Assembly: GCA_014859225.1 (NCBI GenBank)
Contig: JACUUP010000096.1
Span: 1 to 5,525, forward strand
Direction of reading: 5' to 3'
Origin: Candidatus Aerophobota bacterium
GTDB taxonomy: Bacteria > Aerophobota > Aerophobia > Aerophobales > B3-G15
Length of the DNA stretch: 5,525 nt
Shown here piece after piece: positions 1,930-5,525 of this stretch. Each line of letters begins with the position of its first letter. The stretch's first letter is position 1. The notes under the pieces were generated by a model. That model worked only from the letters and a program-made list of their open reading frames with translations. It was not told the DNA's origin and did no database searches. Position numbers and translations under genes: made by a program.

Positions 1930-1957
1930 GGAACATTTGTTACATTTTTATGTCTAA
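1930..1957 (+). promoter_or_regulatory. RpoE/ECF-type promoter of the spy-like gene
   Basis: GGAACAT (1930-1936) is separated by exactly 16 nt from TCTAA (1953-1957). The RpoE-class consensus is GGAACTT, 15-16 nt, TC-x-x-A, so only one base of the -35 box differs and the spacing is ideal. Transcription would start around 1963-1966, leaving a leader of roughly 40 nt with an AGGAGG (1992-1997) eight bases before the start codon. An ECF sigma factor is encoded 800 bases downstream, making it the obvious candidate to use this promoter. The motif is seen directly; use by this particular sigma factor is inference. Confidence 0.6.
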
Positions 1958-2005
1958 TTTAGTAGAATTTTTCTCACAAAATAAAAAAATCAGGAGGAAA
2001 AAAGG

Positions 2006-2485
2006 ATGAAAAAAAGATGGGGGAAAAGAGCCTGGGTTGTTCTTCTCTTGGTAGCGTTTGTAATTTCGCTGGCAAGCGTCTCGTGGGCCTGGCGGGGAAA
2101 TTACGGTCCCAGGGCAGCGGCGATGCGAGAGGGAAGGGAAAGATGGGAGAGGAGGGTTGATATAGATTTAACCTTAGAGCAAAAAGAAACCCTTGCTAAA
2201 TTAAGGCTTTCCCTTCAGGAGGAAACTTTAGATCTTCGCACCCAGCTAACGAGAAAGAGAATTGAGCTGAATAAACTCTGGTTGGAGGAGAGCCCGGATA
2301 AGACCAGAATCTATTCTTTGATGGATGAGATGGCGAGCATCAGAGCAGAGATAAACAAAAAATCAGTGGATTTTCTTCTTGAGGTGAAGAAAATTTTGAC
2401 CCCCGAGCAGCTTCAGAAATTCTGGTTACCCGGTCAAGTTTCAGGCTGGAAAATGAGACACGCTCCTCGCCCTTGCCCCTGGTGA
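2006..2485 (+). CDS. Spy/CpxP-family periplasmic protein (LTxxQ motif)
   Basis: A 159-residue exported protein of the Spy/CpxP/heavy-metal-sensor superfamily. These are small all-helical periplasmic proteins that act as ATP-independent chaperones or as stress and metal sensors. A signal peptide is clear: a basic start (MKKRWGKR), a hydrophobic core to about residue 25, and a likely cleavage after SWA (A28). The mature part is basic and then coiled: the first LTxxQ motif is LTLEQ (55-59), followed by a long amphipathic hairpin (60-130), and the second motif is LTPEQ (131-135). This two-motif layout is the family signature, and the length matches Spy. The C-terminus (MRHAPRPCPW) carries a His and a Cys of unknown role. 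Strong AGGAGG and an RpoE-type promoter precede it. It is probably the effector output of the downstream sigma system. The specific gene name is not assigned, since CpxP-like or metal-linked roles cannot be separated here. Confidence 0.82.
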   Translation: MKKRWGKRAWVVLLLVAFVISLASVSWAWRGNYGPRAAAMREGRERWERRVDIDLTLEQKETLAKLRLSLQEETLDLRTQLTRKRIELNKLWLEESPDKTRIYSLMDEMASIRAEINKKSVDFLLEVKKILTPEQLQKFWLPGQVSGWKMRHAPRPCPW

Positions 2486-2497
2486 TGGATAAATATA

Positions 2498-2520
2498 GGG
2501 AGGGGGGTATCCCCCCTCCC
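2498..2520 (+). terminator. Strong G/C hairpin after the spy-like gene, no T-run
   Basis: GGGAGGGGGG (2498-2507) and CCCCCCTCCC (2511-2520) form a perfect 10-bp stem with a three-base TAT loop, starting 12 nt after the stop codon. A further CCC and then AAAAGATT follow instead of a T-run, so it is not a canonical intrinsic terminator. It may attenuate read-through into the sigma operon or stabilise the 3' end of the spy-like message. Confidence 0.5.
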
Positions 2521-2750: not shown

Positions 2751-3335
2751 ATGGCAAACTCCGATGAGAGTTTGATTCGTAGATTTAAAAATGGGGACGA
2801 GGAGAGCTTTAAAGAACTGGTAAAAAGATACCAGGCACGCATCTACAGTATAGTTTTTGCTATGATGGGGGATAAAAATGATGCTGATGATATCTGTCAG
2901 GAGATTTTTGTTAAGCTTTACCGCTCTCTTTATCAATTTAGGGGAAAATCTAAATTTTTTACCTGGCTTTACCGACTAACGGTAAATACCTGTATCAATG
3001 CCCAAAACGGTAGAAAGAGAAAACTTCAAACTATTTCCTTATCTCATCCGGTGGGAGAAAGCGAGCAGTCACTTGTAGAATTCATTGAACAGGATGGGGA
3101 AAACTGCTCAATAGATATCTTAAAAAATAAAGAGCTTGGCATGAAAATAAACTCCGCTATTGACTGTTTATCAGATGACTTAAAAGAAGTTTTCATCCTC
3201 AGAGAGATTGAAGATTTATCTTACAGGGAACTGGCAAAAATCCTCCAGTGTTCTGAGGGAACTATAAAGTCAAGACTCTTTAGAGCGCGTGATAGATTAA
3301 AAGAAAAACTTTTGCCTTACATAAATAACTCTTGA
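2751..3335 (+). CDS. ECF (group IV) RNA polymerase sigma factor, RpoE-like
   Basis: A 194-residue extracytoplasmic-function sigma factor that directs RNA polymerase to stress promoters. Region 2 spans about residues 8-88. It contains the core-binding segment DADDICQEIFVKLYRSLYQF (44-63), and FFTWLYRLTVNTCIN (69-83) includes the -10 recognition helix. A variable linker (about 90-130) joins it to region 4 (about 137-187), with LSDDLKEVFILREIEDLSYRELAKIL and the helix-turn-helix CSEGTIKSRLFRARDRLKEKL that reads the -35 element. There is no region 1.1 or 3, as expected for the class. The ATG has AGGAAGG (2740-2746) four bases upstream. The next gene is its anti-sigma factor, 17 nt after the stop. 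The RpoE-type promoter at 1930-1957 is a likely target. The protein is intact and of standard length. Confidence 0.93.
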   Translation: MANSDESLIRRFKNGDEESFKELVKRYQARIYSIVFAMMGDKNDADDICQEIFVKLYRSLYQFRGKSKFFTWLYRLTVNTCINAQNGRKRKLQTISLSHPVGESEQSLVEFIEQDGENCSIDILKNKELGMKINSAIDCLSDDLKEVFILREIEDLSYRELAKILQCSEGTIKSRLFRARDRLKEKLLPYINNS

Positions 3336-3352: not shown

Positions 3353-3841
3353 ATGAAATGCAGATGGTCAAAAGAGAACCTATCTGCCTACATAGATGGT
3401 GAGCTAAACATTATAACAGGCTGGATAATTAAAAGGCATGCGAAGTTTTGTCCTGAATGTCAAAAAGAGTTGAATGAGCTGCAAAAAATAAGCAAGTTAA
3501 GCAAACTTTTACTTATTAAGGAGCCTGAGTTTGACTTCTATGAACAAGTCCGGGAAAAACTTCAGCAGGTGAAAATCGCTCAGCAGGAAAAACCCGAGAT
3601 TGCTGCAGAACGCAAAAGCATTGAAAGGATGTGGACTTTTCTGCCCCAATCAGGCAAAGCTGCCCTTTTAGTGGGAGTGGCAGCTTTATTGTTTTTTCTG
3701 GTAATCTACCCACAGATTTTTCCCGCTCCTTCTTTAAGTATAGAACAATTTGAAGAGGAGTACCTGCGCTCGCGGGAAACGCTCCCCTGGGTAGAAAGCC
3801 CGGCTTTATCGGCAACACTTATGAGTGCAGAGAGGGGTTAG
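3353..3841 (+). CDS. Zinc-binding membrane anti-sigma factor (ZAS family)
   Basis: A 162-residue single-pass anti-sigma factor that should hold the adjacent ECF sigma inactive at the inner membrane. The N-terminal ZAS domain shows C3, then 25 residues, then H29-x3-C33-x2-C36 (RHAKFCPEC), the same spacing as the zinc site of the redox-responsive RsrA family. SAYIDGEL (11-18) is the typical first helix. A helical linker follows, then one membrane segment (KAALLVGVAALLFFLVIY, about 102-119), and a short outer tail of about 43 residues rich in acidic residues (FEEEYLRSRE). Topology is cytoplasmic N-terminus and periplasmic C-terminus. The next gene encodes an RseB-like periplasmic protein, the known partner type for such tails. 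Release is probably by proteolysis, by oxidation of the zinc site, or both; the sequence does not decide. Confidence 0.88.
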   Translation: MKCRWSKENLSAYIDGELNIITGWIIKRHAKFCPECQKELNELQKISKLSKLLLIKEPEFDFYEQVREKLQQVKIAQQEKPEIAAERKSIERMWTFLPQSGKAALLVGVAALLFFLVIYPQIFPAPSLSIEQFEEEYLRSRETLPWVESPALSATLMSAERG

Positions 3842-3842
3842 G

Positions 3843-4865
3843 ATGAATTTAGTAAAATATCTAATAGCTCTATTTATTTTCACCTTTTCTTTTATCCTGA
3901 CTTTTGCCACTTTCACTTTTCCTTCCCGCGCCGAAGATAGCGAGCATATCATGAGGTCATCTTTTGCTACCACCTTTCAAATTGATTTTGAGGGTATAAA
4001 AGAAGTTTATATTTACAGGCCGCAAACTTTCAGATTTGTAACCAGGGTTATTTATCAAAAACCTGATTTTGTCTATACGGAATATTTAGAGCCTGACCAG
4101 CTCAAAGGGAAAATTATAATTGATGATGGAAAAAGGAGAATAGAGTATCTATCAGTTGAGGATAGAACGAGGATACTTCCCTCATTTAACCATCCTCAGA
4201 TGGAGACATTAAGGGAGATGGCACTAAAAGTTGTGCTTTCCAATTTTAAAATCTCTTTTTTATCCAGGGAAGAAATGCTGGGAAGAGAGGTTTATGTGTT
4301 TGAGCTTTCTCCTAAAAATACAATAAGTCCCTCACTAAAGCTATGGATTGATAAGGAAACTTACCTAACACTGCAAAGAGAAACATACGGTCCGGGGGGA
4401 GAACCTGTCTTTTTTTTCCGTTACATAGAAGTAGAGTTTAACAAAGAGTTTTCCCGGGAAAAACTTTATGAAAAAATCCCACAAACTGCGCAAATTAAAA
4501 AGGAGCCCCCCTTAGTTTCTTATTTCACAGAGAAAGAAATTACTGAAAAACTTAAATTTCCCGTTTGTTTTCCAACATATCTTCCTCCCGGTTATGTTTT
4601 TCAGGCAGGTGAGCTCACTGAAGAAAAAAGGGATGTTAAGCTTATCTACACTAATGGACTTGAGGTAATTGTGCTTTTTCAAAGACCGAGGGTAAATATA
4701 ATGATGCGACACCATCGCTGGGTGAGAACTGATAAAATGAGAATAAGATACGTAACAGGTCCTTATGGCAGCACTTTAGTATGGGACGGGGAAGACAAAA
4801 CTTTTGTATTAATGGGTGATGTTCCCGTGGAAGAGCTGATAAAAGTTGCCCAATCTGTTGAATAA
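3843..4865 (+). CDS. RseB/MucB-like periplasmic sigma-E regulator
   Basis: A 340-residue secreted protein resembling RseB/MucB, which binds the periplasmic tail of the anti-sigma factor, shields it from proteolysis and senses mislocalised envelope lipids or lipoproteins. The signal peptide is MNLVKYLIALFIFTF onward with probable cleavage after SRA (A30); no lipobox cysteine is present. Residues about 33-205 form a LolA-like beta-sandwich domain, with the characteristic strand LWIDKETYLTLQRET (167-181). The C-terminal domain (about 220-340) includes FPTYLPPGYVF (near 243), typical of RseB/DUF4367-type domains. ATG 3843 is one base after the anti-sigma stop and five bases after AGAGGGG (3831-3837). 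An in-frame GTG at 3825 would put extra residues before the signal peptide and is less likely. The match to RseB is by architecture and context; a LolA-like lipoprotein carrier is the alternative. Confidence 0.75.
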   Translation: MNLVKYLIALFIFTFSFILTFATFTFPSRAEDSEHIMRSSFATTFQIDFEGIKEVYIYRPQTFRFVTRVIYQKPDFVYTEYLEPDQLKGKIIIDDGKRRIEYLSVEDRTRILPSFNHPQMETLREMALKVVLSNFKISFLSREEMLGREVYVFELSPKNTISPSLKLWIDKETYLTLQRETYGPGGEPVFFFRYIEVEFNKEFSREKLYEKIPQTAQIKKEPPLVSYFTEKEITEKLKFPVCFPTYLPPGYVFQAGELTEEKRDVKLIYTNGLEVIVLFQRPRVNIMMRHHRWVRTDKMRIRYVTGPYGSTLVWDGEDKTFVLMGDVPVEELIKVAQSVE

Positions 4866-4866
4866 A

Positions 4867-5525
4867 ATGCTTAAAATGCGCATTTTAGTTACTTTTCAGG
4901 GAAACTACGGTAAAAGGATTATTGATAATATTTGCCGAAATGCCCCTGAGGGCTGGGAAATAAGCACCTGGAAAGCTCCCTCTTCCCTGCCACCAATTAT
5001 TGAGGACTTTGCAGAGTTTTTACCTCAACACCTCCCTCAAGTTAATCTACTACTCTGCTTAGGGGAAAGTACAGGAGCGGCTGAGCTTATTCCAGGTTTA
5101 GCCCGACTAGCAAAAGCAAAGGCGGTTATTGCCCCCGCTGATAATTTGGACTGGCTACCTTTCGGACTTCAAAATCAGATAAAAAAAGAGCTAAAGGCAT
5201 CTGGAGTAAGCTCGGTTTTCCCTTCACCTTTTTGCATTCTAACTGAGAAGTTAAGTGAGGATAAATACATAAAATCGTTTGCCACATCCTTCGGAAAACC
5301 ACAAATCATCCTTAACTTCCGGGAAGGTAAAGTTGAAAAGGTTAGCATTAAAAGAGAGGCTCCCTGTGGATGCACCAGGTTTATTGCGGAAAAACTTGTG
5401 GGAATAGAAGTTGCCCGGATAGAGGAAAAAGCAGCGCTTTTGCACCACTATTATCCCTGTCTTGCCTCAGGAAAAATGAGAGGGGCATTTAAGGATTCAC
5501 TTCTTCATCAATCAGCAAGTATGAC
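4867..5525 (+). CDS. DUF166 family protein (partial, runs off window)
   Basis: The first 219 codons of a protein of the DUF166 family (PF02593), cut by the window end. I recall the family being labelled a putative thymidylate synthase in archaea, a role I regard as unproven. The N-terminus MRILVTFQGNYGKRIIDNI looks like a nucleotide-binding-type strand-loop-helix. LLLCLGEST (43-51) is followed by a region ending in IAPADNLDWLPFGLQNQIK. Conserved-looking cysteines occur in APCGCTRFIAEKL (C167, C169) and HHYYPCLASGKM (C198), suggesting a metal or cluster site. The ATG lies one base after the RseB-like stop, and a second ATG at 4876 would give the shorter, more family-like MRILV start. Neither has a clear ribosome binding site, so translation is probably coupled to the gene before. 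Its link to envelope stress is unclear. Confidence 0.75.
   Translation, partial: MLKMRILVTFQGNYGKRIIDNICRNAPEGWEISTWKAPSSLPPIIEDFAEFLPQHLPQVNLLLCLGESTGAAELIPGLARLAKAKAVIAPADNLDWLPFGLQNQIKKELKASGVSSVFPSPFCILTEKLSEDKYIKSFATSFGKPQIILNFREGKVEKVSIKREAPCGCTRFIAEKLVGIEVARIEEKAALLHHYYPCLASGKMRGAFKDSLLHQSASM

Follow-up and report, generated by a model that had tools for sequence, protein, structure and literature searches.

We analysed a stretch of DNA of 5,525 nt (the window) from a Candidatus Aerophobota bacterium, whose source genome is a 1.8-Mb draft that is 91% complete. The plus strand of the window carries a cluster of genes for a Spy-like protein, an ECF sigma factor, an anti-sigma factor and an RseB-like protein, with a promoter element at its head. 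The features are listed below with the basis of each assignment; other genomes, contigs and loci are referred to by handles such as G003, C23 and L102.

1930..1936, plus strand: -35 element GGAACAT of an RpoE-type promoter, with GGAACATT as the form of the clade (sequence and orthologue comparison)
1937..1952, plus strand: T-rich spacer of 16 nt (GGAAC-to-TCTAA distance 18 nt), its length invariant among orthologues
1952..1957, plus strand: -10 element GTCTAA, in which G1952 precedes TCTAA (sequence and orthologue comparison)
1992..1997, plus strand: ribosome-binding site AGGAGG (direct reading)
2006..2485, plus strand: Spy/ZraP/CpxP-like periplasmic protein, 159 aa, signal peptide-like N-terminus (PF13801, E 1.3e-12)
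2498..2520, plus strand: strong 10-bp hairpin just 3' of spy, no T-run on the plus strand (sequence)
2751..3335, plus strand: RpoE-like ECF sigma factor, 194 aa, presumed reader of the promoter (PF04542 and PF08281)
3353..3841, plus strand: anti-sigma factor with zinc finger HAKFCPEC and one hydrophobic segment (PF13490, zf-HC2, E 8.8e-7)
3843..4865, plus strand: RseB/MucB-like periplasmic protein with C-terminal DUF4367 (PF03888, E 4.3e-7; PF14285, E 4.7e-8)

The initial annotation had placed a Spy-like gene beside an ECF sigma, anti-sigma and RseB-like module, and profile and structure matches bear this out. The Spy-like protein, the sole PF13801 protein that we found in its genome, also matches PF07813 (E 8.5e-5, just under the cut-off) and the ZraP structure 3LAY (E 1.2e-4). 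It carries two LTxxQ motifs, LTLEQ and LTPEQ, and residues Q59, T132, E134 and Q135 are invariant in the alignment of Spy-like proteins. Profile, LTxxQ motifs and periplasmic signal are those of the Spy/CpxP/ZraP family, and on the basis of family the protein is a putative chaperone. For the sigma factor the best model is TIGR02939 (RpoE; E 5.8e-45), with a score of 153.6 bits that lies under the equivalog cut-off of 236, and matches to PDB 6IN7/1OR7 reach E values of about 1e-34 to 1e-33. Judged from its sequence it is RpoE-like and not RpoE itself; its nearest named relative comes from Candidatus Aerophobetes AUK192, with 62% identity over the sigma factor. The anti-sigma factor was searched for an RseA N-terminal domain and none was found (PF03872, E 0.08, below the cut-off). 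Orthologues of the RseB-like protein are present in 12 operons, and the genome encodes an RseP-family site-2 protease (TIGR00054, 281 bits, cut-off 147.55). In one orthologous locus (L049, G006:C84) an in-frame TAA lies within the sigma gene while the promoter motif and spy are intact; either the gene is broken or the assembly is in error there. Directly 3' of the RseB-like gene is a gene for a DUF166 protein (4867-5523), which is cut by the contig end. Elsewhere in the window a 35-nt palindrome-containing repeat, GGGGACAGATTTCAAATCTGTCCCC, occurs in two copies (35-69 and 1219-1253), one on either side of a block of small minus-strand genes, and resembles a REP-type or mobile-element repeat. 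A DUF433 and DUF5615/PIN-like pair on the minus strand (199-806) is probably a toxin-antitoxin module.

The promoter had been described as GGAACAT, 16 nt and TCTAA, one mismatch from the core RpoE-type consensus. Direct reading of the window confirms this, with GGAACAT at G1930-T1936, the 16-nt spacer at 1937-1952 and TCTAA at 1953-1957. The single mismatch to GGAACTT/TCTAA is an A for T at the sixth base of the -35 heptamer; measured against the E. coli consensus, quoted as GGAACTT/TCAAA (PMC4890791), there are two mismatches. With a GGAAC -35, a TCNAA -10 and a spacer of about 16 nt the element has the form of an RpoE-type promoter. From the end of TCTAA (1957) to the ATG of the Spy/ZraP-like gene (2006) there are 48 nt, and the transcription start is predicted a few nt 3' of the -10 element, at about 1961-1964.

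Might the element be a chance similarity or a dispersed repeat? The short core GGAAC-N-TCTAA by itself is weak evidence: in its loose form (GGAAC-N14-20-TCTAA) 0.10 matches are expected per window, and genome-wide it does not exceed its control (30 matches vs 36 for the reversed pattern), so that genome-wide counts are uninformative. A relaxed search with one mismatch gave 32 matches vs 24 in controls, mostly noise outside the known sites. For comparison we used 17 genomes of the Aerophobota class; a search of the phylum gave the same 17. A close sigma orthologue is present in 12/17 (about 47-65% identity, or the window's own genome), and in 10/12 the contig reaches far enough upstream for the search, those of G007 and G016 being cut short. 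Upstream regions of 0.76-1.1 kb were searched for [G/T]GAAC followed by TCTAA at any spacer of 10-26 nt (17 spacings). Conservation before orthologous genes had been named beforehand as the test that could refute the promoter, and the motif passed it: exactly one [G/T]GAAC-N18-TCTAA site, with identical spacing, was found in 10/10 close orthologous sigma operons, which are not independent observations, the class being small and its genomes related drafts. When the 12 upstream regions were dinucleotide-shuffled 500 times, a mean of 0.044 regions had a site and the maximum was 1. The extended motif GGAACWTT-N14-GTCTAA had 18 matches in the 17 genomes vs 1 for the reversed control, most of them 36-150 nt before sigma or before genes with signal-peptide-like N-termini. 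The T-rich stretch of the spacer, which lay outside the selection criteria, is conserved as well (T in 19/21 at two positions), and the flanks are unrelated between sites. The element is non-random because exact spacing, extended motif and conservation come together, and with such unrelated flanks we regard chance or a repeat as a practically negligible explanation.

The promoter had also been taken to lie directly before spy. Its RpoE type holds; what does not hold is a promoter dedicated to spy, as it persists in G003 and G004, where spy is absent and about 200 nt separate the element from sigma. In G008 and G009 spy is reduced to broken remnants that keep the start and the signal peptide, and the promoter is retained before sigma. 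In G012 (L100, G012:C11, reverse strand) the place of spy between motif and sigma is taken by a 64-aa frame (MKVKYIGKPTPEKDLLGNEV...). Since the promoter is kept where spy is lost, broken or replaced, the constant partner is the sigma operon and not spy. The simplest reading of these arrangements would be that the sigma operon, whose first gene is normally spy, positively regulates itself. We consider it very probable that the element at 1930-1957 serves this Aerophobota bacterium as the autoregulatory promoter of its RpoE-like ECF sigma operon (spy - sigma - anti-sigma - RseB-like).

Alternatively, the promoter might drive spy alone, the hairpin ending the spy transcript and the sigma operon having a promoter of its own. 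The spy-sigma gap of the window is indeed 265 nt long and holds a very stable hairpin, and spy also occurs outside sigma operons with the same type of promoter (L098, L070). However, no second such motif was found between spy and sigma, the hairpin does not lead into a T-run, and G010 and G011 have a gap of just about 95-105 nt. Together with the sites that stand directly before sigma, or before sigma and a broken spy, this makes a spy-only promoter unlikely. The hairpin may protect or partly uncouple the spy mRNA, leaving spy in excess over sigma. Its counterparts in G011, G010 and G001 likewise come after spy; the loci noted for such a hairpin between spy and sigma are L033 (about 2735-2759), L052 and L048, and it may stabilise or attenuate the transcript. 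Less easily reconciled with a promoter of the sigma operon is G016, where 307 nt separate the motif from spy and contig ends cut the link to the sigma operon.

Which sigma factor reads the element? From its position, from residue conservation and from exclusion of the alternative, the promoter is most likely read by the ECF sigma of its own cluster. The sigma-4 residues equivalent to R149, G168, T169, S172, R173 and R176 of E. coli RpoE are identical in 12/12 close orthologues (the RpoE sequence used for the alignment agrees with chain 1OR7); the DNA-contact roles of these residues are known from RpoE-DNA structures. The sigma homologues of G013 and G014, which are 35-40% identical, have no upstream motif, and R149, G168, T169 and R171 are changed in them. 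Across the 17 genomes motif and sigma occur together in 11, neither occurs in 4, and the two discordant genomes (1 + 1) are contig-truncated or 69% complete; the Fisher p of 0.01 is weakened because the genomes are related. We consider it very unlikely that the element merely resembles an RpoE site and is read by the housekeeping or another sigma factor. A sigma-70-like match (9/12) does overlap it at 1939-1968, but this site is not conserved and such matches, 6 vs 2.3 (sd 1.9) in shuffles, are not clearly above expectation, so that a sigma-70 promoter was rejected. The genome holds one other ECF-like sigma, on contig C5, whose recognition helix is different. None of the other 16 genomes of the class has an orthologue of it, and it therefore cannot be the reader of a conserved motif; it was ruled out.

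The initial annotation had predicted an envelope regulon, and in silico such a regulon is present: the genome search put the motif before tolC/macAB, spy and genes with signal-peptide-like starts. A second site in the window's own genome, GGAACTTTTTTTGTGTTTTTATGTCTAA (G000:C125:18294-18321), precedes a tolC-tolC-MacA-MacB-type operon encoding two outer-membrane efflux proteins, an HlyD/RND-type adaptor, an ABC ATPase and a MacB-type permease. The element stands before spy-tolC-tolC-macA-macB-macB in G004, before spy-tolC in G009 and before two tolC genes in G016. In G003 (L102, G003:C23, reverse strand) the promoter is separated from spy-tolC-tolC-macA by a PF13801 protein and another ECF/anti-sigma pair; this second ECF module looks like an insertion. 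Further sites precede a DUF4384/PEGA protein (G001, G002), a CsgG-like protein (G003) and a protein with a signal-peptide-like start (G003, G004). From these positions it seems that the cluster's own sigma also switches on a TolC/MacAB-type export pump. A third site in the own genome (G000:C119:5315) falls within an open reading frame. It is probably due to chance, as are probably the matches at G014:C42 and G016:C44, which are without the extended motif.

The proposed scheme is that envelope stress would cause the membrane zinc-finger anti-sigma to release the sigma factor; the RseB-like protein probably modulates the anti-sigma, and the RseP-family protease probably degrades it. The freed sigma would then read GGAACATT-N14-GTCTAA before its own operon, so that Spy chaperone and sigma rise together, and would read the same element before the tolC-tolC-macA-macB-type export operon. 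Transcription by this sigma, co-transcription across the spy-sigma gap and the stress signal are presumed steps of this scheme. It is conceivable, if doubtful, that the Spy-like protein acts as a sensor of CnrX type, adjusting the anti-sigma, and not as a chaperone effector, the promoter then mainly closing a feedback loop. CnrX is encoded together with CnrH, likewise an ECF sigma. The Spy-like protein is a PF13801 Metal_resist family member with an ECF sigma encoded alongside it, and in G003 the PF13801 protein adjoining the second ECF/anti-sigma pair looks anchored. Against such a sensor, the N-terminus is signal peptide-like rather than obviously anchored, spy also occurs beside tolC outside the sigma operon and is lost from some sigma operons, and the invariant positions of the 7-protein alignment include no histidine; judged by invariance alone, the metal-binding histidines of CnrX have no counterpart in the 7 homologues. 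More speculatively, and with a rather low probability, one RpoE-like sigma might replace Bae/Cpx-type control of Spy and tripartite efflux across Aerophobota, while the operon-first Spy feeds back on the anti-sigma/RseB-like sensor.

In our literature searches we found no paper on Aerophobetes sigma factors, and an uncultured phylum hereby gains a precise promoter prediction and a small regulon. New here are the phylum and the wiring of Spy plus efflux, in which regulator and targets are unusually combined. Operons that hold both an ECF sigma and a Spy-fold protein have partial precedents. In CnrYXH of Cupriavidus metallidurans a Spy-fold periplasmic protein is encoded beside an ECF sigma; there CnrX is the metal sensor of a metal-resistance system, whereas the Spy-like proteins described here are without invariant histidines. 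In Azospirillum brasilense the ECF sigma RpoE8, a hypothetical protein and a 'periplasmic heavy metal sensor' share one induced operon (PMC12826043), again joining an ECF sigma and a Spy-fold-type protein, with a different gene order and in another phylum.

Autoregulated ECF operons are the norm, as about 55% of ECFs with predicted targets are autoregulated (PMC8103513), and self-controlled promoters of RpoE type are already known: the E. coli RpoE operon is positively autoregulated and RpoE-type promoters have a spacer of about 16 nt (PMC8103513). Like E. coli rpoE-rseA-rseB, the cluster combines an RpoE-like sigma, a membrane anti-sigma, an RseB-like partner and a GGAAC/TCNAA promoter, which suggests that RpoE-type DNA recognition (GGAAC with residues of the R149/S172/R176 type) is retained outside Proteobacteria. 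Unlike in E. coli, the anti-sigma is a zf-HC2 zinc-finger protein without an RseA_N domain, the RseB-like protein carries DUF4367, the first gene of the operon is spy and the predicted targets include a MacAB-type pump. Spy of E. coli is under Bae and Cpx control, with BaeR sites upstream of spy, mdt-bae and acrD (PMC2731931). The suggestion that ECF control of Spy would be a wiring different from that of E. coli is supported by our sequence comparison. Spy is co-regulated with export pumps in both cases, by two-component systems in E. coli and, as predicted, by an ECF sigma here. This indicates that envelope responses repeatedly pair Spy with an export pump, and that either kind of regulator can be put in control of the pair. 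Because BaeR sites precede both spy and efflux genes, the target set described here resembles the Bae regulon, and by this analogy the targets would be Bae-like and the regulator RpoE-like.
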